Below the pieces are notes generated by a model. The model was given only the letters and a program-made list of their open reading frames with translations. It made no database searches and was not told where the DNA came from. The position numbers and the translations under genes were made by a program. Of a stretch of 64,000 bases of DNA, positions 13,973 to 38,450 are shown one piece after another. Every line of letters starts with the position of its first letter. Position 1 is the stretch's first letter. Origin of the DNA: Acidimicrobiaceae bacterium (GTDB lineage: Bacteria; Actinomycetota; Acidimicrobiia; Acidimicrobiales; Poriferisodalaceae); the NCBI GenBank assembly GCA_002719335.1, contig PBHE01000008.1, forward strand, positions 1 through 64,000, written 5' to 3'.

Positions 13973-15463
13973 TTATCCGCCTAAGGCGGATAGCACGGAG
14001 ACTTCACCAAAGTGGCCAACGAGGCCTGGTAGCACGCCGAAAGCCATCGTCGCGAGCAGCGTGACAGTGAGTGCGGCACCCAACGCGCCAGTCACAACGA
14101 TTGGCCGGTCATCGCCATCAGCTACTGGTTGGAACCACATCTGCGTCAAGACTCGCGCGTAATACGCGAACGCGATCACAGTATTGACTGCCACAACGAC
14201 AGCGAGGCCTGCCGCCCATCCCCCACCCGCATCTAAGAGCGCTCGGAACAGACCAAATTTGGCGAACCAGCCACCCGCTGGCGGGATACCTGCGAGCGCT
14301 GCAAGGAAAACGGTCATCGCCACGGCGAGGCCTGGCGCGTATCGGAACAATCCTCCATAGCTGTCGATTTCGCCGGACCGGGTTTTGCGGGCTACGGCTA
14401 ACACGACGGTGAAAGCACCCAGATTCATGAATGCATAGATGGCAAGGTAAATGACCACTGCCTCGATGGCTCGTGCCGGGGCATCAGCAGCTACGGCGAA
14501 CGGAACCAACATAAATCCACCCTGAGCGATGCCTGAGTATGCAAGGAGCCGAACAATGTTGGTCTGGCGGAGCGCTATGAGGTTGCCAACAGTCATCGTC
14601 AGCGCTGAAATCACCCAAAAGAACGGTTGGATGACATCCTCCCGACCAAGGAAGGCAACAAAGACAAGCTGGATGAGTGCGACCATTCCTGCAGTCTTTG
14701 ACGCGACGGCCAAGAACGCGGTCACTGGCGTTGGAGCGCCCTCATATGTATCGGGAGCCCATGTGTGGAAGGGGACTGCGGAAACTTTGAAGGCGAACCC
14801 AATCAACACAAACAGAATGCCAAGAACGGCAACGGGGTTAGACGGGCCTGACCCCAATTCTTGTGCGATGGCGTCAAAGCTGGTGGCACCGGCCAGGCCA
14901 TAGACGAGAGACATTCCGTAGAGCATCACCGCTGAGGCAAAAACGCCCATCAGGTAGTACTTGAGGCCCGCTTCGTTGGAACGCGGACCTCCTTTACGCC
15001 AAGCGGCCAGCATGTACGCCGGGATCGAGAGGAGTTCGAGCGCGACGAAGACGCTAATCAAGTCTCGTGAACTACTCATCATCACCATGCCGAGTAGCGA
15101 TGTGAGCATCAAGGTGTAGTACTCGTTTTCGTAATAATCGCCGTCGCGGATGTAGTCGACTGACATCAGCACGACGACATATCCAGATATGAGGAATAGG
15201 GCTTTCAGCACTAGTGAGAAGTCGTCAACGACATAGGCGCCGCCGAACATTGAGCGTTCTGTGCCATCTACCGCCAGGGTCAAAATGGGGACAAGGGTGG
15301 CTAGTAATCCCATGCCGGCCAGGGTCGGCATCGCCTGCTTGGACCGTTCATCCCAGATGATGTCGACGATGGTGATAAGTGTCCCGAACGCAAGAAGGGT
15401 TAACTCGGGTGCCAGGGCATGCCAGTCGAGTGACGGCCGAGTGAAGGCGAGCAGGACATCCAT
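13973..15463 (-). CDS. nuoN: Complex I subunit N (Nuo1)
   Basis: This 496-residue antiporter-like subunit has about 14 membrane helices. The proton-path residues are present: Glu in SVFVALELLSIPAYMLA and Lys in GFAFKVSAVPFHTWAPDTYEGAPTPV. It belongs to the 11-gene cluster without nuoEFG. It starts two bases after nuoM stops and is followed closely by the methyltransferase gene. Confidence 0.95.
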   Translation of the reverse strand: MDVLLAFTRPSLDWHALAPELTLLAFGTLITIVDIIWDERSKQAMPTLAGMGLLATLVPILTLAVDGTERSMFGGAYVVDDFSLVLKALFLISGYVVVLMSVDYIRDGDYYENEYYTLMLTSLLGMVMMSSSRDLISVFVALELLSIPAYMLAAWRKGGPRSNEAGLKYYLMGVFASAVMLYGMSLVYGLAGATSFDAIAQELGSGPSNPVAVLGILFVLIGFAFKVSAVPFHTWAPDTYEGAPTPVTAFLAVASKTAGMVALIQLVFVAFLGREDVIQPFFWVISALTMTVGNLIALRQTNIVRLLAYSGIAQGGFMLVPFAVAADAPARAIEAVVIYLAIYAFMNLGAFTVVLAVARKTRSGEIDSYGGLFRYAPGLAVAMTVFLAALAGIPPAGGWFAKFGLFRALLDAGGGWAAGLAVVVAVNTVIAFAYYARVLTQMWFQPVADGDDRPIVVTGALGAALTVTLLATMAFGVLPGLVGHFGEVSVLSALGG

Positions 15464-15465
15464 GA

Positions 15466-17028
15466 TCAGCCGCCGGCCACAATCGCCTCAACACTGGCGG
15501 TTATCCCGCTGACGACGTCGTCGGTCACATTGAATATCAGGTTGGGCCAGATACCAAACAGAACGATGCCTACCAGGAATGGTGTCCAGGCGATCCATTC
15601 GAGTCGGTTGACGTCCTCTATTTCATGGCCGGCGAATTCTTCTGGGGGCTCACCGAAGGCTGTGCGCTGATACAGCCATAGCAAATATCCTGCGGCGAGC
15701 ACGGTACCGACCGCGGCAATGACCATGTAGGTTCGGAAGGTTTCTTCGGGCAGGCCCGCCCCGGGGTTATACGCGGACAGAATCGCGGGGAATTCGCCCC
15801 AGAAACCAGCAAGGCCGGGTAGGCCCAGGGAAGCCATGGTCGCGAATCCGAGGATCCAACCCATCCGCGGCACTGATTTGAGGAGACCACCGAGCCGAGA
15901 AATTTCCAAGGTGTGAAATCGCTCTTTCACTGAGCCAGCGAGGAAGAAGAGCATCCCTGTGATCAAACCGTGTGCGACCATTCCAAAGACCGCTGCGTTT
16001 ATTCCGAAGTCAGTCAATGTTGCTATGCCAAGCATCACGAAGCCCATGTGCGCTACAGAAGAGAACGCTATGAGACGTTTCATGTCGGTCTGCGCGAGAC
16101 AAGCCAGTGCTCCGTAGATGATGCCGATCACTGCGAGTAGCCCTATCCAGGGAGCCCATGAGACGGCGCCTTCGGGCAGGAACGGGATAGCTATCCGAAC
16201 GAATCCGTAGGTGCCCAACTTGAGGAGCACCGCAGCAAGGATGACAGATCCAACGGTCGGAGCTTGAGTATGAGCATCCGGCAGCCATGTATGGAACGGG
16301 AACATTGGAACTTTGATACCGAAGCCCATGAAAAGACCTGCGAAGATCCATACCTGTGTGTTCTTTATGATTCCTACGCCCGCGACATCGCTCAGGACCC
16401 TCATATCGAAGGTGTGTAGCAACTCACCTGACGAGTCTTTCGAGAGGAAGAACAGCGCCAGGAAGCTGATGATCATGAGAGCTGAACCGAACAATGTATA
16501 GAGGAAGAATTTGAGTGATGCGTAGCGACGCTCCTCTCCGCCCCAGACGCCGATTAGGAAGTACATCGGGAGCAGAACGACTTCAAAGAAGACGAAGAAG
16601 AGAATCATGTCTTGTGCAACGAACGTGCCGTTCATTCCGGTCGACAGAATCAGCAACAGTATGAAGAATGCTTTAGTGTTGCCCGGTTCAGGAACGTGAT
16701 TCCAGCTGTAGATGAGACACAATGGCACTACTACCAATGACAGGAGCAGCAACGGCAATGAAAGCCCGTCCAGTCCGACGATGTACCTGCTGTTGATGAC
16801 GTCGATCCAACCCTTGTCGACAACAAATTGAAGATCGCCTGCGGCGCCGTAATCGAATTGGAACGCCGAGTAGACCCCGACGATGAGCGCTACTAGCGAC
16901 GAGCCGAGCGCGACCAGTTTCAGCTCCGCTTCGTAGGCTTTGGGGATCATCATGATGACTAGTGCGCCTACCAAGGGCAGGAACACGGCCAGGCTCAAGA
17001 CCCAAGTATCAAATCCTGTGGCTTCCAC
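15466..17028 (-). CDS. nuoM: Complex I subunit M (Nuo1)
   Basis: This 520-residue antiporter-like membrane subunit carries Glu in ILFFVFFEVVLLPMYFLIGVWGG and Lys in GFGIKVPMFPFHTWLPDAHTQAPT, the conserved proton-translocation residues. TDMKRLIAFSSVAHMGFVMLG is another family block. It lies between nuoL and nuoN with spacings of 10 and 2 bp, consistent with one transcript. Confidence 0.96.
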   Translation of the reverse strand: MEATGFDTWVLSLAVFLPLVGALVIMMIPKAYEAELKLVALGSSLVALIVGVYSAFQFDYGAAGDLQFVVDKGWIDVINSRYIVGLDGLSLPLLLLSLVVVPLCLIYSWNHVPEPGNTKAFFILLLILSTGMNGTFVAQDMILFFVFFEVVLLPMYFLIGVWGGEERRYASLKFFLYTLFGSALMIISFLALFFLSKDSSGELLHTFDMRVLSDVAGVGIIKNTQVWIFAGLFMGFGIKVPMFPFHTWLPDAHTQAPTVGSVILAAVLLKLGTYGFVRIAIPFLPEGAVSWAPWIGLLAVIGIIYGALACLAQTDMKRLIAFSSVAHMGFVMLGIATLTDFGINAAVFGMVAHGLITGMLFFLAGSVKERFHTLEISRLGGLLKSVPRMGWILGFATMASLGLPGLAGFWGEFPAILSAYNPGAGLPEETFRTYMVIAAVGTVLAAGYLLWLYQRTAFGEPPEEFAGHEIEDVNRLEWIAWTPFLVGIVLFGIWPNLIFNVTDDVVSGITASVEAIVAGG

Positions 17029-17038
17029 TCTGCTGCTC

Positions 17039-19240
17039 CTATACGACGATCACGAAGACTATGGCCAGCACCGCTGCTGATCCGAAAAGCAGCTGGCCGT
17101 AGTTCTGGATTTTTCCGGACTGGATAGCGCGCAGACCCTCGCCAGAGGAATCAGCGCCGCGCGCGGCAGCATTGACGGATCCGTCAATGGCGCCTTGGTC
17201 AATCCACTTGTAGATCCAACGTCCGGTATCTCGAGCAGTCTCACCTGCTCTGTCAACTACTCGGTCTAGGACATTTTGATTGACGCGGTTCGCCCAATTA
17301 GCGATGGGGCGTTTAACTGTTTCGACGATCACGTCGTTGTAGAGATGATCGAGGTAATACTTGTTTTCTAAGAAGGTGTAACCATTTTTGGCATACCGGT
17401 TGCGTTCGGTCATGCCGTGGAGACCGACACGACGCCAGTAATAGAGGTATGTGACGACAATGCCTGACACTGCTAGCGCTAAACCGACCAGAGCCATGGT
17501 GAGCGAGGGATCCGGATGCGAGAGTCCTAATCCACTCAGATAAACCGAGGGTTCCACGTAAGTTTGGATTCGATGAGCAAGCCCTTCCAATCCGAAGGGT
17601 TCTAGTACTGGGCCCGGCAGGTTGAATACTCCGGCGATAACTGCCATGCCTGCAAGAATCCACAACGGCGTGGTCATCATTTTCGGCGACTCGTGGGGGT
17701 GACCCTCGCCTCTAAATTCGCCGTGGAATGTGTACCAAATGACTCGGGTCATGTACGCCGCCGTCATAACGGCAACTACGCACCCAAATATAAGCATCAG
17801 GGGGTAGCTATTTTTTTGGCCGACGAGTGATCCAAGCAGAATTTCGTCTTTCGACCAGAACCCTGCGAACGGGAAAATCCCCGCTAAGGCCAGCGACGAG
17901 ATAACAAACGTTCGATAGGTGTGGGGCATGTCTTTCTTCAGCCCGCCCATCTTTCGCATATCGAACGTGTGGTGGGCTGCGTGGCTGACTGATCCTGCCC
18001 CTAAGAACAAGCACGCTTTAAAGAAAGCGTGGGTGAATAAATGAAATATTGCTGCGGTCCAAGCACCGACGCCGAGAGCCATGACCATGTAGCCAAGTTG
18101 AGAAACTGTCGAGTAGGCCAACACTTTTTTGATATCCCATTGCGCGAACGCGAGAGCCGCACCAATGAGTGCAGTGAACCCTCCGATGAAAGCCATGAGG
18201 TTGATTGAGCTAGTGCCGACGGACAAGCCTTCGTAAAAAACGGGGTAGAGCCGGGCAATCATGTAGACACCCGCTACGACCATCGTGGCGGCGTGAATGA
18301 GCGCAGATACTGGGGTGGGACCTGCCATCGCATCCGGTAGCCATGTGTGGAGCGGGAACTGACCAGATTTCGAGGCAACCGCGGCCATTAGGCAACATGC
18401 GGCGACGAGAAGCGCTAGGTGATGCGCTCCTGGGTCCGCCGCTATGAGGGTGTTGATGGCATCGATATCGAAGGTTTGGAAGGTGCCCCATAGGACGATA
18501 ATTCCAACGAGAAGTCCTATATCTCCGACGCGATTAGTTAGAAATGCTTTTAAGGCCGCGTCCGTGTTCGGTTTTTCCTCCCACCAGTGCCCAATGAGGA
18601 CAAACGAACACACGCCGACGAGTTCCCATCCAACGATTAGTTGAACGATGTTCTGCGCCATCACAAAGAACAACATGGCTGCGGTGAAGAGGCTTAAGAA
18701 GGCGTAGTAATGAACGTATCGGCGGTCGTCCTTTACATATTCAGTTGAGTAGATGTGGACGAGAAGGGAGATAGAGGCCACGACTATAAGCAGCAAAACA
18801 GTTAGGCCATCGACAAGGGTGCCAACCGAAAATTCGATTCCTCCGTTGGACCACCATTGAGAAAAAGTTGAAATAACCGGGCGAATCAGAGGGCTGGAAT
18901 GACCTCCTCCATGCGCGTCACCTGAATTGTTTTCGGATACCACCACATGATCATCAGCATGATCATCAGCATGATCATCAGCATGATCATCAGCATGATC
19001 ATCAGCATGATCATCAGCATGAGATGCCATCTGAACAACTGCGTCAGGTGGTGGATGCTCCACACGCTGTGTCCATTGAAAAGCCGCTAACGCTGATAGG
19101 ACCCACACAAGGCCAAGGGCCGTGATTCCCACAACGTGAACGCGATCCGGTCCAATGAATCGCTTGCCAAACAAGAGGATCACGACAAAGGAGATAGCCG
19201 GTATGAGGGGAATTATGAAAGCGTTCTCTAGCATCCACAT
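17039..19240 (-). CDS. nuoL: Complex I subunit L (Nuo1), with His/Asp repeat insert
   Basis: The 733-residue distal antiporter-like subunit is longer than its Nuo2 paralogue (625). Family blocks include QLIVGWELVGVCSFVLIGHWWEEK (Glu) and KSGQFPLHTWLPDAMAGPTPVSALIHAATMV (Lys), and a long C-terminal lateral helix region ends in one more membrane span. Between the second membrane helix and the conserved FSVGTLVDGLTVL segment is an insert with six HADD units (residues 74-97), followed by Gly/His-rich sequence. The loop is probably on the outer face of the membrane. The insert could bind metal or protons, or simply be a slippage product. Confidence 0.95.
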   Translation of the reverse strand: MWMLENAFIIPLIPAISFVVILLFGKRFIGPDRVHVVGITALGLVWVLSALAAFQWTQRVEHPPPDAVVQMASHADDHADDHADDHADDHADDHADDHVVVSENNSGDAHGGGHSSPLIRPVISTFSQWWSNGGIEFSVGTLVDGLTVLLLIVVASISLLVHIYSTEYVKDDRRYVHYYAFLSLFTAAMLFFVMAQNIVQLIVGWELVGVCSFVLIGHWWEEKPNTDAALKAFLTNRVGDIGLLVGIIVLWGTFQTFDIDAINTLIAADPGAHHLALLVAACCLMAAVASKSGQFPLHTWLPDAMAGPTPVSALIHAATMVVAGVYMIARLYPVFYEGLSVGTSSINLMAFIGGFTALIGAALAFAQWDIKKVLAYSTVSQLGYMVMALGVGAWTAAIFHLFTHAFFKACLFLGAGSVSHAAHHTFDMRKMGGLKKDMPHTYRTFVISSLALAGIFPFAGFWSKDEILLGSLVGQKNSYPLMLIFGCVVAVMTAAYMTRVIWYTFHGEFRGEGHPHESPKMMTTPLWILAGMAVIAGVFNLPGPVLEPFGLEGLAHRIQTYVEPSVYLSGLGLSHPDPSLTMALVGLALAVSGIVVTYLYYWRRVGLHGMTERNRYAKNGYTFLENKYYLDHLYNDVIVETVKRPIANWANRVNQNVLDRVVDRAGETARDTGRWIYKWIDQGAIDGSVNAAARGADSSGEGLRAIQSGKIQNYGQLLFGSAAVLAIVFVIVV
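18946..19017 (-). repeat. Six perfect 12-bp tandem repeats inside nuoL of Nuo1
   Basis: The plus-strand unit catgatcatcag occurs six times without a mismatch, followed by a partial seventh copy. It encodes HADD on the minus strand. Being a multiple of three, gain or loss of a unit keeps the reading frame. Each unit also contains the palindrome atgatcat. This is a coding minisatellite, not a CRISPR array. Confidence 0.97.
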
Positions 19241-19249
19241 AGCGCTGCC

Positions 19250-19549
19250 CTATCCCCGCATCAAATCGAAGTCTTCGACATTGATGCTGCGGCGGTTGCG
19301 ATAGAGGAGCAGAACGATGGCAAGACCCACGCCAACTTCTGCAGCCGCAACCGCTATGACGAACACCGCAAAAACTTGACCAGACACAACGCCGTGCTGC
19401 ACTCCGAAGGCCACCAAATTGATGTTGACGGCGTTAAGCATCAACTCGATAGACATCAGCACCATCACGCCATTGCGTCGCGCAAGTACGCCATAGACAC
19501 CTATCGCAAACAACACAGCGCCCAGAATCAAGAACTGGTTTAGCAGCAC
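19250..19549 (-). CDS. nuoK: Complex I subunit K (Nuo1)
   Basis: The 99-residue protein has three membrane helices. Conserved blocks are [33 protein letters not shown], with the two buried glutamates (SIELMLN and [13 protein letters not shown]) used in proton transfer. Size and topology are those of the family. It starts one base after the nuoJ stop and is followed nine bases later by nuoL. Confidence 0.96.
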
Positions 19550-19550
19550 G

Positions 19551-20045
19551 TCAGTCCTTCCTCGCTAGGACGATAGCCCCAATGAGAGCGGCTAATAAGA
19601 GCACTGATACCGCCTCGAAAGGGACGATATAAGTGGAAAAAACTTCATCCGAAACGTCCGCTGTCCGAAAGATCGGGCCATCACTTGTGAGACGATCAGA
19701 TCCAAAACGAGCCATCAGTGAATAGACAGTGACACCTCCTATGAGAAGAGACACAACGGCCGCTATCGGCCATTGAGCTCCCGTCATTTCCATCACACCG
19801 CCCAAGGGCGCCTTAGTAAGCATGATGCCGAACAAGAAGAGAACCATCACTGCCCCGATGTAAACCAGGACTTGAGTCGTCGCCACAAACTCGGCCGTTA
19901 AAAGGATATAGAGGGCCCCAAGTCCGGCAAGTACTGCTACTAAGTACAGGGCTGCATGAACAATGTTGCGCGTCGTCACCATCCGCAATGCGGAAACGAC
20001 AACTATGGCCGCGATGACCCCAAAGAAAATGTTCTGCGCAACCAT
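19551..20045 (-). CDS. nuoJ: Complex I subunit J (Nuo1)
   Basis: The 164-residue subunit has five predicted membrane helices. The segment [25 protein letters not shown] holds the pi-bulge helix TM3 of NuoJ with its conserved Tyr-Ile-Gly-Ala-Val core. It lies between nuoI and nuoK at 6 and 1 bp. Assignment rests on this motif, size and position. Confidence 0.94.
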
Positions 20046-20051
20046 GCAGCC

Positions 20052-20591
20052 CTACCTTGGAACCTTTCTGACTTTTTGTTCCGAACCTGCCTCATAATCA
20101 AGGAAGTCAGGGACCGTGTCCATCCATTCACCCAAGCGATCCTTGTCGTGAAGCAAGTCCGCTATCCGAGGCTCGCTGTATTCGTACTCAGGTGTCCAGA
20201 ACAACGCATCGAACGGACACACGTCCACGCATATCCCGCAATACATGCACAGGGCATAGTCAATGTCGAAACGGTCGATCATATTCACCGTTCGCGGTTT
20301 GCCTCCAGCGCGTCTGGGCGGGGCTTTGACTTTGTGACCTTCGATGTAAATGCACCAGTCCGGGCAGGATCGTGAGCAGAGCATGCAAGCCGTGCAGTTC
20401 TCCTCGTGAAGCGCTATAACGCCACGCGCACGATCGGGAGGTGCTTCTTTTTCGTGCGGGTATTGAACAGTAACGGCACCTTTCTGAGGGGCTGGAATTA
20501 TTGTTTTCCACCCGCGTTTGGGAAAGAGGGTCCGGCCTGCAGTTCGGGCAGTCACACCCAAACCCTTTATAAGACCCGGAAGCTGCGGCAT
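20052..20591 (-). CDS. nuoI: Complex I subunit I, two 4Fe-4S clusters (Nuo1)
   Basis: The 179-residue peripheral-arm ferredoxin subunit carries two canonical [4Fe-4S] motifs: C66, C69, C72, C76 ([12 protein letters not shown]) and C115, C118, C121, C125 ([12 protein letters not shown]). These hold clusters N6a and N6b, which pass electrons to N2 in NuoB. As nuoEFG are missing from this cluster, NuoI would be the electron entry point of Nuo1, as proposed for ferredoxin-fed NDH-1 and Fpo-type complexes (family knowledge, not shown here). Confidence 0.95.
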
Positions 20592-21616
20592 TAGAACACC
20601 ACCTTAAATATTCCGGTAAGCACAATGTTCCCGAGAGCCAAAGGAATGAGTACTTTCCAAGCGAATTTTTGGAGTTGGTCCTCGCGAAGCCTTGGATAGG
20701 TGAAGCGAACCCAGAAGATGAAAAATGCGATTAAGAGAATCTTGGCAAGCATCACGCCGGGACCGAGAATATTTAAGACGTTGTCGTCAACATCAAATCC
20801 GGGGATCCACCATCCCCCGAGGAACATGACAGCGGCAAGAGCCGAAAAGGCGAAGGCTGTTCCAAACTCCGCCATGAAGAACAACAGAAATCTGAACCCG
20901 GTGTATTCGACATGAAATCCACCGACAAGCTCCGTTTCGGCAACAGGCATGTCAAACGGAGTTTGGGTGAGTTCCGCCTGCGCTGAGATCATAAAAATGA
21001 GAAAGGCCAGAAATTGAGTGAGGATAAATGGGTTGCCAATGGCGCCAAACCCAAAAATTTCCCCTGTCGCTTGTGCCTCAACAATCCCCTGCAGGTTGAG
21101 GGTTTCTGCCTGAATGACGACACCCATTACTGCAAGAATTAGTGGCAGTTCGTATGCGATTAGCTGTCCCGCAGCGCGCAACCCACCCAGAAGGGCGTAC
21201 TTGTTTGCCGACGCCCAACCTGCCATCAAAATGCCGAGTACCGACAGCGAAGAGACTGCCATTGCATAAAAAACGCCAGTATCGAGATTTTGGACGACGG
21301 CGTCGGGACCGGCGGGAAGGACCACGTAGAGCAAGAAGGTCGAGGCAAGCACTACAACCGGCGCCATTCGGAAAACACGCCGATCGGCTTGGGCGGGGTG
21401 AATGTCCTCTTTCTGAAGAAACTTGATCGCCTCGGCTACGAGCTGAAGCGACCCATAGGGGCCTGTGTCGTTCGGCCCAAGACGGCTTTGCATGAAGGCC
21501 ATCATCTTGAAAAGGAAGAGGTAAACGAGAATAAGCGAAGCCGTCGGAATTACCACTAGGGCTAAACCGAGTTTTATGGCGGTCTCTTGCCAATACGGGA
21601 GGGCGAGAAGCGACAT
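20591..21616 (-). CDS. nuoH: Complex I subunit H (Nuo1)
   Basis: The 341-residue membrane subunit forms the base of the quinone chamber. Conserved blocks are [59 protein letters not shown] and [30 protein letters not shown], including the acidic loop residues. I chose the ATG that overlaps the nuoD stop (tgATG type). A frame extending 28 codons further upstream lies inside nuoD and has no support. A one-base overlap links it to nuoI. Confidence 0.95.
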
Positions 21617-22788
21617 CACCGGTCGATGTCCCCCAAAATGAAGTACAGGGAACCCAAAATGGTGATGACGTCGGGTACGTACACGCCCTTCATCACCCAC
21701 GGTACGACAGAGATGTTGTTGAAGCTAGGGGTACGTATCTTGACTCGGAATGGTCCTAGATCGCCTTTGCTGACTACGTAATACCCCATCTCTCCGAGCG
21801 GGTTTTCCGTAGAGATATAGGCTTCGCCTGCGGGCACTTTGATGATCCGCGGCACCTTAGCCATGATCGGCCCACTCGGAATTCCGTCGAGCAGTTGGTC
21901 AACCATTCGTGTCGCTTCGCGTGTTTCTTGTAAACGAACCCAATAACGGGCGAAGGAATCTCCATCAGGATGAGTCCATACCCGCCAATCGATCTGATCC
22001 CATGCCAAACCTGGGTTCGCGTCTCGTCGGAGATCCCAGTCGATTCCGCTCGCGCGAAGGTTTGCGCCGGAGAGTCCGTAGCCAAGAGCCATATCCGCGG
22101 GGATCACACCAACGCCCCGGCATCGAGCTTGGAAGATTTCGTTGCCAACCAATAGGTCTTCCATCTCGTCGCAGAAGGTGCGCATTTTCACCATCACGGA
22201 ACGGGTCTCATCAACCCAACCCTTTGGAATGTCGTCCTTAAGCCCCCCGATTCGGTCGAAATTCGGATGGAAGCGCCCGCCAGTTACTTCCTCGATTTGG
22301 TTCAGAACGCGCTCGCGGTCTCGGAACGCGAAGAAAACGGGGGTTAGTGCCCCAACTTGGACTCCCATGTCGCCCAAAAAGAGCGACAGATTGGCGATTC
22401 GGCTCAGTTCGAACAGGATGGTACGAATCCATTGGGCTCGAGGCGGAGCCTCTACTCCCATTAGACGTTCCGCGGCAAGAATGAAGGGAACTTCGTTTGC
22501 GAAACTCCCGAGCCAGTCAATCCGATTAATGAGGGTGGTGCATTGGGGGTACGTGCGTACTTCGCACAACTTTTCGTAGCCGCGGTGCATGTAGCCCATG
22601 ATCGGTTCAGCCGCGATTACCTGTTCCCCATCCAACCGGGCGGCAATGCGGAGCGTTCCGTGAGTAGCGGGATGCTGAGGCCCAATGTTCAGGGTCATGT
22701 CTCCGGTATCGAGCTCAACGTTTATTCGAGCATCAGCGGCCTGAGCAGACACGTAGGCCATCTGTTCTCGATCGGAGGTAGCTGTCAT
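21616..22788 (-). CDS. nuoD: Complex I subunit D (Nuo1), with Trp at the quinone tyrosine position
   Basis: The 390-residue 49-kDa-type subunit lines the quinone cavity together with NuoB and NuoH. MTLNIGPQHPATHG keeps the catalytic-site His (His43). Two positions stand out. The loop reads HRGYEK, with Arg69 at the place dimethylated by NDUFAF7 in mammals. The following block reads NRIDWLGS, with Trp92 where Thermus Nqo4 Tyr87 and mammalian Tyr108 hydrogen-bond the quinone head. The DNA codon is an unambiguous TGG. It overlaps nuoC by four bases (ATGA). Otherwise the protein is full length and looks intact. Confidence 0.96.
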   Translation of the reverse strand: MTATSDREQMAYVSAQAADARINVELDTGDMTLNIGPQHPATHGTLRIAARLDGEQVIAAEPIMGYMHRGYEKLCEVRTYPQCTTLINRIDWLGSFANEVPFILAAERLMGVEAPPRAQWIRTILFELSRIANLSLFLGDMGVQVGALTPVFFAFRDRERVLNQIEEVTGGRFHPNFDRIGGLKDDIPKGWVDETRSVMVKMRTFCDEMEDLLVGNEIFQARCRGVGVIPADMALGYGLSGANLRASGIDWDLRRDANPGLAWDQIDWRVWTHPDGDSFARYWVRLQETREATRMVDQLLDGIPSGPIMAKVPRIIKVPAGEAYISTENPLGEMGYYVVSKGDLGPFRVKIRTPSFNNISVVPWVMKGVYVPDVITILGSLYFILGDIDR

Positions 22789-23486
22789 GCTTCACCTCCT
22801 TCGGCTTCGAAGGCAGCCATGACTTCAGCTTCCAGTTGAGCTTCTAGGTGCTCGGGGATTTCTTCGATGTCGACAACCCCTGGCCACGGTTTAACCTGTC
22901 GGGCCAGCAATGGAAAATCTTTTCTTAGAGGATGACCTTCAAACTCGGTTGGCAGATACAACGGTTGCAGTGTTGGGTGGCCTTGAAACACGATGCCAAA
23001 CATTTCGTGGGTCTCGCGTTCATGCCAGTCGGCGCCGGGGAACAAGTCACGAATGGTGTCGACGGTCAAGTCTTCACCGAGGTCCGCTTTTAGAATTACG
23101 CCGAGTTGCCGGTCAAGCGAGTGCAGCTGCATCAACAGTTGGAATCGGGTATCTCCACCCGCGTAGCCGGTGGAAGCGTCAAGTTCGACGGGCTCTTCAT
23201 CTTCTTCGATGAGCCCCGCGTCAAACTCAGTGTTCTCATATCGACCTTCTGGTGCGATGTTCCAGTCGATCGCTGAAAGAAAGCCAAAGTATGCGAAGCC
23301 AGCGTCCTTGGCTGTTCTCACTGCGTCATGCCAGTTGTCGACTCGAACTCTCAACCAAAGATCTTCGTGGGGACGCAGATACGAGTCGACAAGTATTTCG
23401 CCCAGACTTTCAGAAAGCTCGGTTAATAGGTTCTCTCTATCTTCATCGGCAGGCAGCGTTTCCTCTGGGGTCGGTTGGTCACCCAT
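22785..23486 (-). CDS. nuoC: Complex I subunit C (Nuo1)
   Basis: The 233-residue 30-kDa-type subunit has a poorly conserved acidic N-terminus of about 35 residues. The family signature is [46 protein letters not shown] near the C-terminus. Its internal acidic insert (LIEEDEEPVELDAS) is unlike the Nuo2 paralogue. NuoC packs on NuoD and NuoI in the connecting module. It ends in a four-base overlap with nuoD. Confidence 0.95.
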   Translation of the reverse strand: MGDQPTPEETLPADEDRENLLTELSESLGEILVDSYLRPHEDLWLRVRVDNWHDAVRTAKDAGFAYFGFLSAIDWNIAPEGRYENTEFDAGLIEEDEEPVELDASTGYAGGDTRFQLLMQLHSLDRQLGVILKADLGEDLTVDTIRDLFPGADWHERETHEMFGIVFQGHPTLQPLYLPTEFEGHPLRKDFPLLARQVKPWPGVVDIEEIPEHLEAQLEAEVMAAFEAEGGEA

Positions 23487-23490
23487 TGAG

Positions 23491-23994
23491 TCAGCCCTCC
23501 ACCACGATGGGCTGGCCCCGCCATTTTTCAGTTATGTCTTCCTTCTGGATTCGTTCTTGTAGCAGCACTATTCCTTCAAGAAGCGCTTCAGGCCGGGGAG
23601 GGCAGCCGGGAACATACACATCAACGGGGATGACCTGATCAACACCTTTGGTCACCGAGTAACTATCCCAATAAGGTCCACCGCAGTTCGCGCACGAACC
23701 CATAGAAATCACGTATTTCGGTTCAGGCATCTGCTCGTACAGACGGCGGATCACCGGAGCCATCTTGTCGGTGACGGTTCCAGAAATTACAACTAGGTCG
23801 GCTTGTCGAGGACTAGCGGGGAATGGGATTACCCCAAGGCGCATCACGTCATAGCGCGGTGATGCAAAAGCCGCCCCCATTTCGATGGCACAGCAGGCCA
23901 AGCCCCACTGGTAAACCCATAACGACCGAGCGCGTCCAAAGTTGAGTAACCAACTGAGGGGCTTTGGCATCTTGCCTTGTTCGATGAGTCCCAT
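23491..23994 (-). CDS. nuoB: Complex I subunit B, N2 cluster (Nuo1)
   Basis: The 167-residue PSST-type subunit has the N2 [4Fe-4S] ligands at the expected places: C34 and C35 ([10 protein letters not shown]), C101 ([11 protein letters not shown]) and C131 (VPGCPPRPE). The blocks [24 protein letters not shown] are typical. N2 is the last cluster before quinone. The N-terminus is about 40 residues shorter than in the Nuo2 copy. Confidence 0.97.
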
Positions 23995-24008
23995 TTAGAC
24001 AGCCTTCC

Positions 24009-24374
24009 TCACACCCACCGCAGAACATCCTTGCGCCAGGCGTAAAACAAGCCGAGCACAAGAATGAAAATGAAGATGGCCATTTCGACAAGTCCGAACG
24101 TGCCGTAGATCTCTAGTCGCGTCGCCCATGGGAAGATAAAGACTGCCTCAACGTCAAAAAGGACGAACAAAACAGCGAAGACGTAATACCGAATCTGACT
24201 CTGGGCCCAGTCTCCCCCTACGGGATCGACACCACTTTCGTAAGCCATCAGTTTCTGTGCGGTGGGCCGTTGCGGACGAAGAATGCGCGCAATAGTCAGC
24301 ATGGTTCCAGCCATAGCTACAGCTGCAACACCGAAGATGCCGACGGTCAGGTAACTCCGCAGTAATTCCGACAC
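24009..24374 (-). CDS. nuoA: Complex I subunit A (Nuo1)
   Basis: The 121-residue protein has three membrane helices, with YESGVDPVGGDWAQSQIRYYVFAVLFVLFDVEAVFIFPWA as the family core. The start is a GTG. It heads the 11-gene cluster A-B-C-D-H-I-J-K-L-M-N, which lacks E, F and G. It lies 181 bp behind nuoN of the 14-gene cluster, the largest gap between the two, so a separate promoter is possible here. Confidence 0.95.
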   Translation of the reverse strand: MSELLRSYLTVGIFGVAAVAMAGTMLTIARILRPQRPTAQKLMAYESGVDPVGGDWAQSQIRYYVFAVLFVLFDVEAVFIFPWATRLEIYGTFGLVEMAIFIFILVLGLFYAWRKDVLRWV

Positions 24375-24555: not shown

Positions 24556-26046
24556 TCATCCCCTAATCAGCACTGGCACTGCATCCTCAGCGAATTCGAT
24601 GAGGAATTGGGGCACAATCCCGATGAGGAGAGTGAAGCCGACGACGCCGATTAAGACGATGGACACGGTCCAGTGCACCGTCGGGGACGGCCCTTCAACA
24701 CCGTCGTCCACTACATACATAGCCATCACGATTCGCAGATACATAAAAGCGCCGATCACGGCGCTGAGCATCGCAACTGACGCTAACAAATAGCCCCTAC
24801 CTTCAACGGCCGCCGCGATGACTTGAAACTTCCCCACGAAACCCGAAGTAAGCGGTACACCGGCCTGAGCCAATAACAGGATTGTGAAAGCCATGGCCAG
24901 GACCGGCCGGCTGCGCCCCAGACCCGCATATCGGTCGAGAGGGTGTTCGCCGTCTACCCCCATTGCTCCAATGATGGCGAAACTACCTAGAACCATGAAC
25001 GTGTAGGTAAAGAGGTAGAAGAGCGCCGCTGAGGTGCCGTTAGCGCTGGCTGACTGCACAGCCACTAGGACGTATCCGGCATGACTAATTGACGAAAACG
25101 CCAACATGCGCTTCACGTCAGTTTGCAGGATCGCCATCACTGCACCGACGAGCAGCGTAAGAAATGCGAGAACGGCAACGACGGGTGCCCAATCAGCGTC
25201 ATGACTTGCAAATGCCGCAAAGAAGACCCGCAGCAGAGCCGCAAAGCCGGCTGCTTTAGCGATCGACGCCATCCATCCGGTTACCGGACTCGGAGCTCCT
25301 TGGTAGACATCTGGTGCCCAGAAGTGGAATGGAGCCGCGGCAACTTTGAATGAGAAACCAACAAGAAGTAAGGCCATCGCCGCCATGAGCAAGTGTTGGT
25401 CTCGAAATACCACTGCGTCCAGGTAGTCCCGCACATGTACCAAGTTGGTGGACCCGGTACTGCCGTAAGTCAGAGCTATCCCATAAAGCAGAAAAGCTGA
25501 GCTGAACGCTCCGAGTACGAAGTATTTCATCGCGGACTCGCGAGCTTCTGGGCGACGAGCGTGCATCGCGATCATGACGTAAAGCGCGATCGATAACGCT
25601 TCCAACCCGAGGAACATAACGATGAGGTCGTTTGCGGAAGCCATGACGATGGCACCCGCAGCCGAGCAAAGAAGAAGGGCGTGGAATTCTGGAGGATCAA
25701 TGTCTTCACGGTCGAGGTAGTTATGGGCAAGCAAAGCCGTTGCTGCCAATGCCACCAAAATCAATATTGTGAAAAAGATGCTGAAACCGTCTACTCCCAA
25801 GGCTGACGCAACAGTGGCCGAAGGGCCTTCGGTCTTAACGTCGCTCCACAAACCAAGAGCGACGATGTAGGCAGTTACCGCCGCGAAAAGCGTTATTACC
25901 GTGGCGAGGCCACTGGACGTTCGTTGGGGAGCTAGAGCACTGAGGAGCAAAATCAGGAGTGCGGCTCCTAGAAGGATCATCTGGGGTAACAGGGCCCACC
26001 AGTCAATTGATGGTCCAGCGAACGCCAAGTGAGGAAGGCCACTCAT
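24556..26046 (-). CDS. nuoN: Complex I subunit N (Nuo2)
   Basis: This 496-residue antiporter-like subunit has Glu in IVMFLGLEALSIALYVMIA and Lys in GFSFKVAAAPFHFWAPDVYQGAPSPVTGW. It is the last gene of the complete 14-gene complex I cluster and overlaps nuoM by one base. It resembles the Nuo1 NuoN over its full length but differs throughout, so the pair is an old duplication or of separate origin, not a recent copy. Confidence 0.95.
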   Translation of the reverse strand: MSGLPHLAFAGPSIDWWALLPQMILLGAALLILLLSALAPQRTSSGLATVITLFAAVTAYIVALGLWSDVKTEGPSATVASALGVDGFSIFFTILILVALAATALLAHNYLDREDIDPPEFHALLLCSAAGAIVMASANDLIVMFLGLEALSIALYVMIAMHARRPEARESAMKYFVLGAFSSAFLLYGIALTYGSTGSTNLVHVRDYLDAVVFRDQHLLMAAMALLLVGFSFKVAAAPFHFWAPDVYQGAPSPVTGWMASIAKAAGFAALLRVFFAAFASHDADWAPVVAVLAFLTLLVGAVMAILQTDVKRMLAFSSISHAGYVLVAVQSASANGTSAALFYLFTYTFMVLGSFAIIGAMGVDGEHPLDRYAGLGRSRPVLAMAFTILLLAQAGVPLTSGFVGKFQVIAAAVEGRGYLLASVAMLSAVIGAFMYLRIVMAMYVVDDGVEGPSPTVHWTVSIVLIGVVGFTLLIGIVPQFLIEFAEDAVPVLIRG

Positions 26047-27623
26047 CAGTGGCCATCCTCGCCGAGTTGATCGAGATCCACGACGACTGGAGCCGCCGGG
26101 CTGGGGCGCTCATAGTCCGAATGGTCCTCGATGTGGGCGATTAGCACGTCTACTGCGGGTTCTATTCGGTCGAGCAATGGCTTGGGGTATATCCCTAGAA
26201 ACAGAATTCCCGCGACAAATGGAGCGAGGATCAGACCTTCCCTCAGTGTCAAGTCGCGGGTTGCCTCATCGGTTGGTGTCGGTTCACCGTGGAAGACCCG
26301 CTGATACGCCCAAAGAAGATACAGAGCTGCAAGGATGACGCCGGCGGCCGCAATAATCGTCCACCAGCGACGCGTTTCGTAAGAACCAATCAAAATCAGG
26401 AACTCGCCAACGAACCCATTCAAGCCAGGAACACCGATGGATGAGAGCATCACGATGGTGAAGAACCCCGCGAAAATTGGGGCGGCGGATTGGATGCCGC
26501 TGAGTTCTTCGATAGCACGCGTTTTGCGTCGCTCATAAAGCATTCCGACGAGTAGGAACAGGGCCCCGGTCGATAGACCGTGGTTAACCATCTGCAGTAC
26601 TCCGCCTTCCAAGCTTTGTGTTGTGAAGGCGAAGATACCCAGAACAATGAAACCCATATGGGCTACCGAGGAATACGCCACGAGCCGCTTCAGGTCTTTT
26701 TGCATCGCAGCGACGATGGCGCCGTAAATGACTCCAATTACCCCCAAGGTGGCCAACGTCGGTGCCGACCAGACTGATGCTTCGGGAAAAAGGTAAAGAC
26801 CGAAACGCAGCAGCCCGTAGGTGCCTAGTTTCAACATCACCGCAGCTAGTACCACCGACCCCGCGGTGGGTGCCTGAGTGTGTGCGTCAGGAAGCCACGT
26901 ATGCATCGGGAAGATCGGCACTTTGATAATGAAAGCGAGAGCGAAGGCCAAGAAACACAAGCGCGCTGTGTTGGTTGACAGGGCTTGGCGTTCCGCGAGC
27001 TCAATCACGCTAAATGTGATGCCTTGGTCACCGGCGCTTAAGGTCGCGACGCTGACAATAGCCACAAGCATCAGGGCTGAACCGGCCATGGTATAGAGGA
27101 AGAATTTCGTGGCCGCGTAGCGGCGATCGTCATAGCCCCAACCGCCGATCAACATGTACATCGGGACTAAGACAATCTCGAACATGACAAAGAACAAGAA
27201 GAGGTCGAGTGCCAAGAATGCACCGAATGAACCCGCCTGCAACAGCAACAGCCAAGCCGTGTATGGCTTTGGATCGTGATGTGGGTCTACCCCTAAAAGC
27301 ACGATCGGGGTGATGAGACCGGTTAGAACGACTAACCACAGCGAAATACCGTCTACGCCCACGTGCCAGTTGATACCTAGGGCTGGAATCCAAGATTGGA
27401 TCGACTCGAACTGGAATGCCGCGTCGTGGCTCGAGAACTGTGTCATCACATAGAGCGACATAGCCGCGGCAATGGAGGCGAAGATTGCGCCGATTGGCCG
27501 CATCATTTCGGGTCTGCTGTTAGGCAAAAGCACGACGACAAGCGCACCCATCGCCGGAACGATGATTATGGCGTTCAGGACGGGAAACGACGATGCATTT
27601 TGGGAGGCGAAGAGTTCAATCAC
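26046..27623 (-). CDS. nuoM: Complex I subunit M (Nuo2)
   Basis: The 525-residue membrane subunit has conserved Glu in LFLFFVMFEIVLVPMYMLIGGWG and Lys in IIKVPIFPMHTWLPDAHTQAPTAGS. The first ~60 residues differ from the Nuo1 copy, and the C-terminal cytosolic tail is longer and Pro/Val-rich. It overlaps nuoL by four bases and nuoN by one. Confidence 0.96.
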   Translation of the reverse strand: MIELFASQNASSFPVLNAIIIVPAMGALVVVLLPNSRPEMMRPIGAIFASIAAAMSLYVMTQFSSHDAAFQFESIQSWIPALGINWHVGVDGISLWLVVLTGLITPIVLLGVDPHHDPKPYTAWLLLLQAGSFGAFLALDLFLFFVMFEIVLVPMYMLIGGWGYDDRRYAATKFFLYTMAGSALMLVAIVSVATLSAGDQGITFSVIELAERQALSTNTARLCFLAFALAFIIKVPIFPMHTWLPDAHTQAPTAGSVVLAAVMLKLGTYGLLRFGLYLFPEASVWSAPTLATLGVIGVIYGAIVAAMQKDLKRLVAYSSVAHMGFIVLGIFAFTTQSLEGGVLQMVNHGLSTGALFLLVGMLYERRKTRAIEELSGIQSAAPIFAGFFTIVMLSSIGVPGLNGFVGEFLILIGSYETRRWWTIIAAAGVILAALYLLWAYQRVFHGEPTPTDEATRDLTLREGLILAPFVAGILFLGIYPKPLLDRIEPAVDVLIAHIEDHSDYERPSPAAPVVVDLDQLGEDGH

Positions 27624-29497
27624 AACAACAGCCCCCAGGTCAGGAGAACCACTATCGCAAGGGCGCCTACTGCTACTCCGATGGCATAGTTCCGGATATA
27701 TCCAGATTGCGCGGGTCGGATGAACTGCGCCATTCTCATTGTTAGTTTGCCGACGCCGTTAACAGCTCCATCCACGATTTGTTTGTCGATGTCGGCCGCT
27801 GCTTGGAAGCCGGTGGTTCCGATCCCAGCAACGACACGCGCATATGTCGAATCGACATGCATAGCGTTCTCAAGAAACTCAGGTTCGAGACGGTCCGTTG
27901 GGATCCGTCTGGTCAACCAGCTAAGAATTGCAATCGAGATTCCTGCGAGGCCTGCGCAGACAGAGATCACTGCCAACACAACCTTGGTGGTGGTGCCGGA
28001 CGAGAACTGATGTGGGTGGTTGAAGACCGGTTCTAGGAAGTGTTCAAGGACGAGCCAATCTTTCACCAGTGGGAGGTTTATGGCGCCGCCGATTATCGCT
28101 GCTCCCGCGAGAATGCAAAGTGGGGTCGTCATAGTCCACGAGGATTCATGCGGATGTGCCTCCTCATCCCAGCGTTGATCTCCGAAGAACACAAGGAAGA
28201 CCTGTCTGCTCATGTAATACGCGGTGAGGAGTGCTGTGATGAGCCCCACAAACCAGAGAAGGGGGCCAATATTTTTCTGTTCCCAGGCTGCTAGCAAAAT
28301 TTCGTCCTTCGACCAGAAACCTGCGAATGGCGGAACACCTGCAATAGCAAGCCATCCCACAATGAATGTCGCGGCGGTGATTGGCATGGCTAAACGCAAT
28401 GCACCCATCTTCCGCATGTCTTGTTCATCACCCATTCCGTGGATTACTGAACCGGAGCCAAGAAACAAAAGCGCCTTGAAGAACGAGTGTGTTATCACGT
28501 GAAAGATTGCTGCTACGTACGCTCCTGAACCGATTGCCAGGAACATGTAGCCGAGTTGGCTGATAGTCGAATAAGCGAGCACCTTTTTGATGTCGTGTTG
28601 TGCTACAGCACATAAGGCGGCAAAAAGGGCTGTTGCCGCGCCAACGACCGCAATCACAATTAGGGCGTCGTCCGTGAGGACATTGTTCATCCGGACTAGG
28701 AGATAAACACCAGAGGTGACCATCGTCGCGGCGTGAACCATGGCCGAAACCGGAGTCGGACCTTCCATTGCGTCGGGCAGCCAGACGGACAAGGGCAACT
28801 GGGCGGACTTACCTGCAGCAGCAACAAGTAAGAGGAGGGAGACGGCTGTTCCTGTGGTCGCTGCCATGGCTGGTGACTTCGCGATTTCGGTGTAGGTGAC
28901 GGTGCCTAATGCGGACCAGATGGCGAAGGTTGCGACCATGAAGCCCCAATCGCCAACGCGGTTAGTGACGAACGCTTTTTTCCCTGCGGTAGCTGCGCTC
29001 TCTCGGTGATGCCAGAACGAAATCAGGAAATATGAGCAAGCTCCAACGCCTTCCCATCCAAGGAAGGTGACTACCAAATTGTTGCCGAGCACAAGCATCA
29101 GCATCGAGAAAAGGAACAGGTTTAGGTACAGGAAGAATTTTGAATATTTCGGATCTCCGTGCATGTAGCCAATGGAGTAAAGGTGGATGAGGGCTCCGAC
29201 ACCAGTGACAAAGAGCGCCATTGTCACCGATAGTGGGTCGACCAGAAATCCGGCTTCTACCTGAAGGGAACCAGCGGGAAGCCATTCGAAAAGAACGAGT
29301 TCGTAGGAGCGTTCGCCGCCGTGGCTGTCTTGACCGAGCAGTCCGACGAACACCGTTAAGGTGACCAAGAAAGAGGCGCCAGCGGCTATGGTCGCAATCC
29401 ACCCAGCGCGGGGCTCTCCCAGCAAATTCCCCGTTACGAGCAGTAGAACGAACCCGATCAGTGGCAGGGCGGGAATAAGCCAAACTAATTCGACCAC
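27620..29497 (-). CDS. nuoL: Complex I subunit L (Nuo2)
   Basis: The 625-residue subunit has Glu in VTFLGWEGVGACSYFLISFW and Lys in GKSAQLPLSVWLPDAMEGPTPVSAMVHAATMV, and it ends in the lateral helix and a final membrane span. It has no HADD insert: the loop after the second helix is short (about 20 residues). It is preceded by nuoK at four bp and overlaps nuoM by four bases. Confidence 0.96.
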   Translation of the reverse strand: MVELVWLIPALPLIGFVLLLVTGNLLGEPRAGWIATIAAGASFLVTLTVFVGLLGQDSHGGERSYELVLFEWLPAGSLQVEAGFLVDPLSVTMALFVTGVGALIHLYSIGYMHGDPKYSKFFLYLNLFLFSMLMLVLGNNLVVTFLGWEGVGACSYFLISFWHHRESAATAGKKAFVTNRVGDWGFMVATFAIWSALGTVTYTEIAKSPAMAATTGTAVSLLLLVAAAGKSAQLPLSVWLPDAMEGPTPVSAMVHAATMVTSGVYLLVRMNNVLTDDALIVIAVVGAATALFAALCAVAQHDIKKVLAYSTISQLGYMFLAIGSGAYVAAIFHVITHSFFKALLFLGSGSVIHGMGDEQDMRKMGALRLAMPITAATFIVGWLAIAGVPPFAGFWSKDEILLAAWEQKNIGPLLWFVGLITALLTAYYMSRQVFLVFFGDQRWDEEAHPHESSWTMTTPLCILAGAAIIGGAINLPLVKDWLVLEHFLEPVFNHPHQFSSGTTTKVVLAVISVCAGLAGISIAILSWLTRRIPTDRLEPEFLENAMHVDSTYARVVAGIGTTGFQAAADIDKQIVDGAVNGVGKLTMRMAQFIRPAQSGYIRNYAIGVAVGALAIVVLLTWGLLL

Positions 29498-29501
29498 CCC
29501 A

Positions 29502-29807
29502 TCAGCCCTTTAACGCCGAAAGATCGTCGGCCGTCGAACCAGGTTGACGGCGAAGAATGGCTACGACTAGTCCTAAGCCAACTACTACTTCGGCAGCAGC
29601 GACTACCAATACGAAGAACACGACTGTTTGCCCGCCGATGTCACCAAGCGTTCGGGAGAAGGCAACAAAGCTCAGATTGACTCCGTTGAGCATTAACTCG
29701 ACACACATGAGCATTACAAGTGGATTTCGACGGATCAGCAATCCAGTACCGCCGATCACGAAAAGTAAAGCCCCTAAAACCAGATACCAGCCAGTGGTGA
29801 TTTCCAT
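29502..29807 (-). CDS. nuoK: Complex I subunit K (Nuo2)
   Basis: The 101-residue protein has three membrane helices and the family core GTGLLIRRNPLVMLMCVELMLNGVNLSFVAFSR, with the second buried Glu in VAAAEVVVGLGLVVAI. Its ATG overlaps the nuoJ stop by one base. Confidence 0.96.
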   Translation of the reverse strand: MEITTGWYLVLGALLFVIGGTGLLIRRNPLVMLMCVELMLNGVNLSFVAFSRTLGDIGGQTVVFFVLVVAAAEVVVGLGLVVAILRRQPGSTADDLSALKG

Positions 29808-30361
29808 CAGGTACCACCCCCGTCTTCGGCAGCTACGGGGTTTGTCTGTTTCGGTTTGCGAACTAGAACTACTGCTCCAATTACGGCAATCACAAGCAAA
29901 AGGGAGGTCAGTTCGAAGGCATACACATAGTCAGAAAACAGTGACCGGGCTAAAAGCCGCACGTCGTCGGTACCTCCGAGGGTGCCGCCCATCGCGTGGA
30001 CCCCCGTGACGGGCTCTCCGACGACGACGATTAGTGCCACAACGACGGCTAGTGAACCCGAAGCGAATAACAGGGCTGCCCATTTTTGGACAGGCAAGAA
30101 AGACATTTCGAGATTCTGGGCTCTATCAACTCCTAACAACATGATGACGAAAAGGAAGAGGACAACGATCGCGCCTGCGTAGACAATCACTTGGACCGCG
30201 GCGAGGAAATGCGCTTCTTGGGCTACAAATTGAACTGCTATGCCAAACAGAGTCATCACTAGCATGAGCGCTGAGTGGACAGGGTTGCGGGCGAGAACCA
30301 CGCCTAAAGCTCCGACGAGGCAGATAACAGCGGCGGCGACGAAAACGAGCGTGTCAACCAT
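29807..30361 (-). CDS. nuoJ: Complex I subunit J (Nuo2)
   Basis: The 184-residue subunit has five membrane helices. The conserved core is HFLAAVQVIVYAGAIVVLFLFVIMLLGV. It has a hydrophilic C-terminal tail of about 15 residues absent in the Nuo1 copy. It overlaps both neighbours by one base. Confidence 0.95.
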   Translation of the reverse strand: MVDTLVFVAAAVICLVGALGVVLARNPVHSALMLVMTLFGIAVQFVAQEAHFLAAVQVIVYAGAIVVLFLFVIMLLGVDRAQNLEMSFLPVQKWAALLFASGSLAVVVALIVVVGEPVTGVHAMGGTLGGTDDVRLLARSLFSDYVYAFELTSLLLVIAVIGAVVLVRKPKQTNPVAAEDGGGT

Positions 30362-31017
30362 TAATGTTGACCTCTCGCATCTGCGCTTCGATGTTGCTCC
30401 TCAGGTCCTTCAGCTTCGTCTTCAACGTTTGAGGTGCGCTGACCTATTTCTGGGGCTCGCACGCCATAGCCAAGTTCGCCGCTCCAGGCAATTCGGTTTT
30501 GATAATCAGGGTTTCCAGATGAAGCCGTCGCTCGCATCCAACCAGAGGTGTCCGAGTCATCCCCATCATGCCAAAGCTCCCAGGGTTGACGTTGTGGGAG
30601 ACCATCATCGTCGACGACCAATTCTGCTTTCGTGTAGATGGCGTCCTCTCTATTGTCGAAGCTGAATTCAAACAACTTGGATTCGGTGATTGCTTCGGTG
30701 GGGCAAGCTTCGACACACAGGTCGCAGTGGATGCAGCGAAGGTAGTTGATTTCGTAGACGTATCCGTAACGCTCCCCTGGTGATACGGGAGATGTCTCGG
30801 GGTTATCAGCACCTCTGACGTATATGCATTTCGCCGGGCACACACCCGCGCATAGTTCACAGCCGATACATTTTTCCATGCCGTCTTCGTAGCGGTTGAG
30901 GACGTGCCGGCCATGGAATCGCGGCGGCTTCGGACGCTTTTCTTTGGGGTACTCAGTGGTGACCCTTTCTTCGAATAGCTTCAGAAAGGTGACCTTGAAA
31001 CCGTCGAGGTAGCCCAT
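30361..31017 (-). CDS. nuoI: Complex I subunit I, two 4Fe-4S clusters (Nuo2)
   Basis: The 218-residue ferredoxin-type subunit has ligands C50, C53, C56, C60 ([12 protein letters not shown]) and C95, C98, C101, C105 ([12 protein letters not shown]) for clusters N6a and N6b. A long C-terminal acidic, Ser/Glu-rich tail of about 75 residues extends beyond the fold, a common feature of actinobacterial NuoI. It overlaps nuoH by one base. Confidence 0.96.
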
Positions 31018-32210
31018 TACACCTCCTCTAGTTCTTCCTGGTATGCGCGGTCACCGGCTCGCAACGCCATGGTGAGAAGGGAAGCTCCTATCGCTAATGC
31101 GACGACGGCTGCTCCATAGGTCACTACCCAATTCCAGTTATAGGTAGCGCGCAGTTCTTTTAAGCTGATGAACATCAGCCAGAAAAGAATGAGTGGGATT
31201 AGCAGCTTCCAACCCAGATTCATTAATTGGTCGTAGCGAAGTCTTGGAAGAGTCGCCCGGAACCAGACAAACACGAAGAGGAACGCGAGGACTTTAAGTA
31301 GGAACCAAATTGTGGGCCAGAACCAGGTCATACCGAAGAAAATCGGGCCGGCAGGGCCGCCAAAGAAAAGGGTGACCATGATTGCCGACATGGTGATGAC
31401 GTTCATGAATTCGGCAAGAAAGAATAAAGCGAAACGAATCGATGAGTACTCGGTGTGAAATCCGCCGACGAGTTCTTGTTCGGCTTCTACCAGGTCAAAT
31501 GGTGGCCGATTTAGTTCAGCGGTCGCCGCGATCAGGAAGACGATAAATGGGACGATTCCCGATGAGACGAGGAACCAGCGCGTAAAGCCGCCGGATTGAG
31601 CGGCGACGATACCGTGAGTTGACAACGTTCCGGCGAGCACCACAACAACAACGGTGGCCATGCCCAGCGCGGCCTCGTAAGAAATAGCTTGTGCTGAGGC
31701 GCGAACGGAACCAATGAGCGGATACTTAGAGCCCGAAGCCCAGCCGGCAAGCATCACCCCGTAAACAGCTATGGAGGACATAGCCAGCAAAAAAAGAATG
31801 CCGATCGGAGGGTCGGCTACTTGAAGGTAGGTTTCCCGCCCGAAAATAGTGACAGTTCCGGAGGACCCACCGCCGAATGAGCCGCCGATGGGGACAACGG
31901 CGAAGGACAAAAAGGCGGTCACGGCCGAGATGTACGGTGCTAGCCGAAACACTAGCGGGTCGGCGTTTTCAGGTCGGAGGTCCTCTTTGAAAAAGAATTT
32001 CACACCGTCAGCAAACGTCTGGAGTAAACCCCAGGGTCCGGCCACATTGGGGCCGATCCGATTTTGCATGTCCGAGATCAGCTTCCGTTCGAACCAAACC
32101 ATGAACATGGTGGCGACAAGCAGAAAGGTAAACGCCACGACAACTTTGGCGATCGTGATGCCGATATCGACGAGGTCGACGCCGTCGAGGTATAGGGGAT
32201 CGCCGGTCAC
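31017..32210 (-). CDS. nuoH: Complex I subunit H (Nuo2)
   Basis: The 397-residue membrane subunit has [56 protein letters not shown] and [32 protein letters not shown]. The start is a GTG that overlaps the nuoG stop (GTGA). The C-terminal extra helix ([20 protein letters not shown]) is lacking in the Nuo1 paralogue and seen in other actinobacterial NuoH. Confidence 0.96.
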
Positions 32211-37908: not shown

Positions 37909-38450
37909 CGGCCCTCTACCGCCTTGAACTGGACGGGGATCGTCCCCATCGCGAAGTCTTTGCGTAGTGGGTGGCCTTCCCATCCGTCGGGAAGCAAGAT
38001 CGGGGTTGGATCAGGGTGGCCTTCGAAACAAACACCAAACATGTCGTTTGTTTCTCGCTCCATCGCTTCGGCACCTGGGTGGATGTCAGAGATAGTTGGG
38101 ATCGAAGGATCAGATTCCGCTATTTGCACTCTGACCCGGAGCCGTCGTGGCGTGCGGACATCAAGCAGATTGACCACTAACTCGAAGCGCTCAGGCTCAA
38201 TTGCCGCGGGCAACACCCGAGTTGCGTTTCCCAGATGGTCCGCCCCACACAGATCTACACAGACGGCGTAGCCCTCTTCCACCAAGAGCTGGATGAGGTC
38301 GTGATAACCCTCCGCAGCGGGGTGTAGGACGATTTGACCTTTACTGTCAGTAACGGCAACGCCATGAAGTTTTTTTACCGTGTCCCTTGGATCTTCGTCT
38401 GATTCAGCTAGCTCAGTCGTCTCATCGAGCGAGGATGTCGACTCACTCAT
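37905..38450 (-). CDS. nuoC: Complex I subunit C (Nuo2)
   Basis: The 181-residue 30-kDa-type subunit has an acidic N-terminus of about 25 residues. The family motif is [46 protein letters not shown]. It overlaps nuoB by eight bases and nuoD by four. NuoC bridges NuoD, NuoG and NuoI in the connecting module. Confidence 0.95.

Follow-up and report, generated by a model that had tools for sequence, protein, structure and literature searches.

The window analysed here, a 64,000-nucleotide stretch of DNA from an Acidimicrobiaceae bacterium, carries two complex I gene clusters, both on the minus strand and arranged head to tail. Nuo1 (13973..24374) runs from nuoA to nuoN without nuoE, nuoF and nuoG; Nuo2 (24556..39539) includes these three genes. 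Most genes are named by eye from the open reading frames (ORFs) and their order (nuoK of Nuo2 falls below the ORF-listing cut), and nuoF of Nuo2 is assigned by PF01512. This domain has no match inside Nuo1; in the genome (81.6% complete) it is found only in Nuo2 (C10:35346-35861) and at C16:14122-14628. The absence of nuoE and nuoG from Nuo1 is read by eye from the ORFs. Outside the complex I cluster, most genomes of the family have an additional gene with PF01512, whose frame is usually about 580-680 amino acids long; in this genome (G000) it is the C16 match.

Complex I-like enzymes of 11 subunits that do without the NADH module, for example in Desulfitobacterium, are described in the available sections of PMC11238625. 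Nuo1 resembles them in lacking the nuoF domain and, by eye, nuoE and nuoG; unlike the Desulfitobacterium type, it is paired in tandem with Nuo2, which carries nuoE, nuoF and nuoG. A tandem pair is not mentioned in the accessible part of PMC12361115, which deals with the distribution of complex I. In many genomes of the family one contig holds both NuoL types, separated by about 10-22 kb. The nearest public contigs carry the labels Acidimicrobiaceae, Acidimicrobiia or Acidimicrobiales, and include the marine actinobacterium MedAcidi-G3.

The nuoL gene of Nuo1 (P0001; 17039..19240, minus strand) encodes a protein of 733 amino acids. It is identified as NuoL by NF005141 (599 bits, cut-off 556) and TIGR01974 (578 bits, cut-off 407.5), and it contains the Pfam domains PF00361 and PF00662 (Proton_antipo_M and Proton_antipo_N). 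Fold and sequence are shared with NuoL, Nqo12, ND5 and NdhF (PDB 8e9g_L, 6hum_F, 3rko, 4he8). Solved NuoL/ND5/NdhF chains align with VIA-align Z scores of 40-44 among the 50 matches listed, up to 44.4 with 8e9g_L; phmmer against solved chains gives E values down to 8e-114.

Near the start of this gene lies a 12-bp tandem array (18946..19022, minus strand; Tandem Repeats Finder (TRF): period 12, 6.4 copies, 100% matches, score 154). The unit CATGCTGATGAT occurs six times and encodes (HADD)6-H at residues 74-98; the peptide H(ADDH)6 holds seven His and twelve Asp in 25 residues. AHGGGH follows shortly after, with HGGGH at residues 110-114 (18899..18913, minus strand), 3' of the array. A sequence-only reading had reported six perfect 12-bp units with this His and Asp content, followed by a Gly/His stretch, and TRF and the translation agree with it. 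Its limits of 18900-19030 need correction: the feature is there, the array occupies 18946-19022 and the whole extra loop spans about 18878-19057.

The array is real, and neither chance nor an artefact accounts for it. The longest lag-12 identity run in the window is 65 bases (no more than 11 in any of 60 base shuffles), and the longest lag-4 run in the protein is 21 (at most 5 in 2000 shuffles); since both are far above the shuffles, the array is not a product of chance. A 24-mer of two units has no second site in this genome (81.6% complete), and no other site in the window reaches five His and six acidic residues per 30 residues in stop-to-stop frames of at least 100 amino acids. The looser pattern H-x-D-x-H-x-D-x-H has one further match in the genome (C37:21490); its reversed control likewise has one.

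Two other uses of this DNA were considered and rejected. An antisense gene is excluded by the lack of a plus-strand ORF across the array among ORFs of at least 80 amino acids. An RNA element was rejected after three arrays were folded (z of -0.21, -2.53 and -1.27), as just one was clearly better than its shuffles. A weaker tandem repeat is present elsewhere in the window (7127-7176; period 24, 2.1 copies, 76% matches by TRF).

The AlphaFold2 model of Nuo1 NuoL (mean pLDDT 75, pTM 0.78) places transmembrane helix 2 (TM2) at residues 31-61 and two strands at 122-132 and 135-143, which together form a predicted beta-hairpin (residues 122-143; 18812..18877, minus strand); pLDDT is below 50 at residues 73-114. 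By this model and a comparison of 52 NuoL, the extra outer loop from TM2 to the hairpin comprises residues 62-121 (18878..19057, minus strand). Judged from the alignment starts in four solved chains, Nuo1 NuoL is longer by about 54-71 residues ahead of the hairpin; unlike the solved chains, this stretch is predicted to be disordered and is rich in His and acidic residues. Three of ten residues in the TM1-TM2 link are basic, as expected for a segment on the inside, and the TM2-TM3 loop would therefore lie outside; for both Mrp and complex I, the accessible text of PMC7419157 places the beta-hairpin elements in the periplasm. Topology and the structure model thus suggest a disordered repeat loop on the outer face, after membrane helix 2, in line with what had been proposed from the letters alone. 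The loop contains ten His and sixteen Asp/Glu, and its calculated charge is about -3 at pH 5 and about -14 at pH 8.

The NuoL of Nuo2 (27620-29497, minus strand; NCBIfam) has no long loop, as had also been noted. In all 21 Nuo2-type NuoL compared (that of the window and those of 20 relatives), the segment at this position is 15-24 residues long and His-poor, with His at most 0.07 and Lys/Arg in each.

A strict array, defined as two H-[A/G]-D-D units plus a third His, is found in 12 of 39 genomes of the family (reversed control, 0 matches), so the repeat is not peculiar to this assembly. It sits in nuoL in 11 of the 12; the sole match in G031 is in a gene that resembles CtaD by eye. The loop was compared codon by codon in 18 genomes of close relatives, and both the repeat unit and the copy number vary from species to species. 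Six species of genus g6 have five to seven copies of CATGGCGATGAC. G035 has a 24-bp HADD-HGDD unit and G034 an HDDG-HGDG unit; G038 has ten copies of CATGGTGACGAT, and its congener G037 has just HGDDHADD, which amounts to two units. Degenerate arrays such as HVDEHGDQRADEHGDDHANDH also occur. Genus g7 of the same family and some other family genomes have acidic loops with no array and few His.

The G029 bin contains two nuoL variants (L090, L151), one with six copies of CATGCTGACGAT (six perfect HADD units) and the other with the degenerate HADDHEADPADDH. They are 96.5% identical across the first 198 nt and may represent two strains in one bin. In line with the expectation that copy number may vary, the length differs between species and between these two variants. 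The 12-bp unit was also expected to keep the frame, and the reading frame is intact through the loop in ungapped relatives. Perfect units here and other perfect units in relatives support recent expansion by slippage, as first suggested from the identity of the units; the content of His and acidic residues is kept in the relatives.

In six of the 18 relatives the contig is interrupted inside the loop; it ends there in G009, G011, G031 and G034, and an N-run is present in G027 and G036. In these genomes, a given 160 bp would contain a contig junction with a probability of about 0.1-1%. The breaks are compatible with long or polymorphic arrays. They could also be taken as a sign that the array is an assembly or chimera artefact. 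The probability of this is negligible, and the explanation is rejected: at 77 bp the array is shorter than short reads ordinarily are, its frame is intact, and 10 further genomes of the family have similar arrays at the same place of nuoL.

Complex I subunits are usually regarded as strongly conserved. NuoL varies most in length between TM2 and the hairpin, from 3 to 104 residues, among 52 aligned sequences (alignment A1: the window and 51 hand-picked from 80 loci, mostly Acidimicrobiia, Acidimicrobiales and Acidimicrobiaceae; fragments, gapped or frameshifted loci and others, some usable, were left out for size). The loop is practically absent in three of the 52. Compared with the remainder of the protein, all 49 loops of at least 20 residues are more acidic and lower in Lys/Arg; 47 of them are His-enriched by the same comparison and two are not. 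Many of the distant loops are rich in Glu/Ala and contain few His, and the loop of L066, outside the A1 set, spans 22 residues with a single His. His pairs at distance 4 number 47 in nine near loops (11.5 expected) and 39 in 40 distant loops (24.7 expected; P 0.001, which is only indicative because the distant loops are mutually related). At distances 1 to 3, such pairs are depleted. Across the phylum, a match with an E value of 1e-100 or better was obtained in 77 of 149 genomes; in 29 loci read by eye and unscored, long acidic loops are prominent in few, mainly of the same order, and many have a short TM2-hairpin segment.

This variation could mean that the TM2-TM3 loop is tolerated filler, which accepts almost any soluble non-basic sequence and in which His has no role. 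An inherited seed rich in His, Asp and Gly would then be copied and degraded by slippage, and Lys/Arg would be rare through the positive-inside rule. The wide range of lengths, the three NuoL without a loop, the single His of L066 and degenerate arrays of the HVDEHGDQRADEHGDDHANDH kind are all consistent with this, and much of what is seen in the near clade could stem from an inherited His/Asp seed. It explains less well why 47 of 49 long loops are His-enriched, why distant loops have an excess of His at lag 4, and why genera differ in unit type yet use the same residues. We consider it somewhat improbable.

A codon test for selection bears on the same question. It used 17 array pieces from 16 genomes. 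Those of G027 and G036 and one from G031, gapped or outside the four-residue register, were excluded, and this exclusion favours the H and D slots. When every genome counts once at each codon, the H slot (3/8, P 7e-4), the D3 slot (4/13, P 1e-6) and the D4 slot (4/11, P 5e-5) have too few non-synonymous changes; the x slot has no deficit (13/18, P 0.77). After collapsing to genera, no slot is significant alone at a transition bias of 4 (pooled P 0.02), and the pooled P is 0.06 at a bias of 8; this weakening counts in favour of tolerated filler. The composition is likely, though not proven, to be under constraint.

The explanation that we favour, tentatively, is a disordered and composition-constrained brush of His and acidic residues on the proton-exit subunit, renewed by slippage and possibly buffering protons locally or serving as an antenna for them. 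The repeat would be the present form of a disordered outer loop, from TM2 to the beta-hairpin, in the NuoL of a complex I without nuoF. Slippage would create and erase arrays, and selection would maintain composition (His and Asp/Glu, no Lys/Arg) and not sequence. The least certain step is that such a brush near the exit might buffer or collect protons. This role is proposed because NuoL has itself been proposed as the proton-releasing subunit: the available portion of PMC10212512 puts forward that protons leave complex I only via NuoL/ND5, and states that others disagree. In Mrp, a negative periplasmic surface has been suggested to gather protons (PMC7419157, in the sections available).

Several observations argue for the brush: the predicted outer position and disorder, a composition that is kept across the class-level set and absent from the Nuo2 paralogue, unit types that vary by genus while H and D stay, the distance-4 His excess, and the charge calculation. 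Against it stand the NuoL without a loop, the two long loops that are not His-enriched, the few His of genus g7, the weaker codon test by genus and the dispute over the proton-exit model. H/D-rich segments in inferred cytoplasm-facing sites also count against it; L051 and L082 have H-A-D-D units in the TM13-14 loop of NuoL. The cyanobacterial NdhF (6hum_F) is a further NuoL-type protein with a His-rich low-complexity insert. Its His cluster is likewise in the TM13-14 loop, a different loop from that of Nuo1 NuoL and probably facing the cytoplasm.

Metal binding is another candidate role. His residues at i and i+4 with adjacent Asp might bind Zn, Cu, Ni or Fe outside the cell, for storage, sensing or regulation of the pump. 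The H-x-D-D-H spacing would suit this, and disordered His-rich loops contribute to zinc binding in the periplasmic protein PA4063, as reported in the accessible part of PMC8561739. As far as these sources extend, the zinc proteins PA4063, ZnT and AdcA share with Nuo1 NuoL a disordered loop rich in His and acidic residues; unlike theirs, the Nuo1 loop is on a proton pump, has regular H-x-D-D spacing and has metal binding as a candidate property. The depletion of His pairs at distances 1 to 3, unlike dense His clusters, and the numerous distant loops that are Glu/Ala-rich with few His speak against a metal site, which we regard as unlikely. Tolerated filler and metal binding are nevertheless serious rivals that rank behind the buffer or antenna, in that order. 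For both protons and metals, the step from composition to handling is one that we infer. The loop itself looks real and fast-changing, a variant of the known protein NuoL with a candidate role. A keyword search, with matching papers covered in part, found no earlier description of a His-rich NuoL loop.

In one paralogue of a tandem pair, then, the sequence of an outer loop appears to be repeatedly rebuilt and its His/acid composition mostly retained. If the loop affects proton release, the relatives are natural length variants with which to ask whether NuoL is the proton exit, and the same variants could show whether surface buffers matter to a pump. A bolder and quite improbable extension is that 12-bp slippage acts as an evolutionary rheostat, each unit adding one His/Asp-Asp cell to the proton-exit subunit of one paralogue. 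Were this true, the outer face would have its proton buffering (or metal loading) tuned from strain to strain with the frame unbroken.

H/D-rich segments are also seen in other respiratory proteins of relatives, and these too count against the brush. The CtaD-like product of L152 (62-1570) has an H/D-rich tail, inferred to face the cytoplasm, and the NuoM proteins of L039 (5194-6879) and L041 (5194-6903) have H/D-rich tails.

In seven species (nuoL loops L088, L146, L092, L147, L093, L094 and L091), CATGGCGATGAC is identical including its synonymous sites. Outside the loop, codons of invariant residues in nuoL of the same species are identical at 6/18 H, 4/16 D and 7/52 G positions; this comparison is post hoc and concerns four sites. 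Gene exchange or a constraint at the DNA level is a possible explanation for the shared codons.
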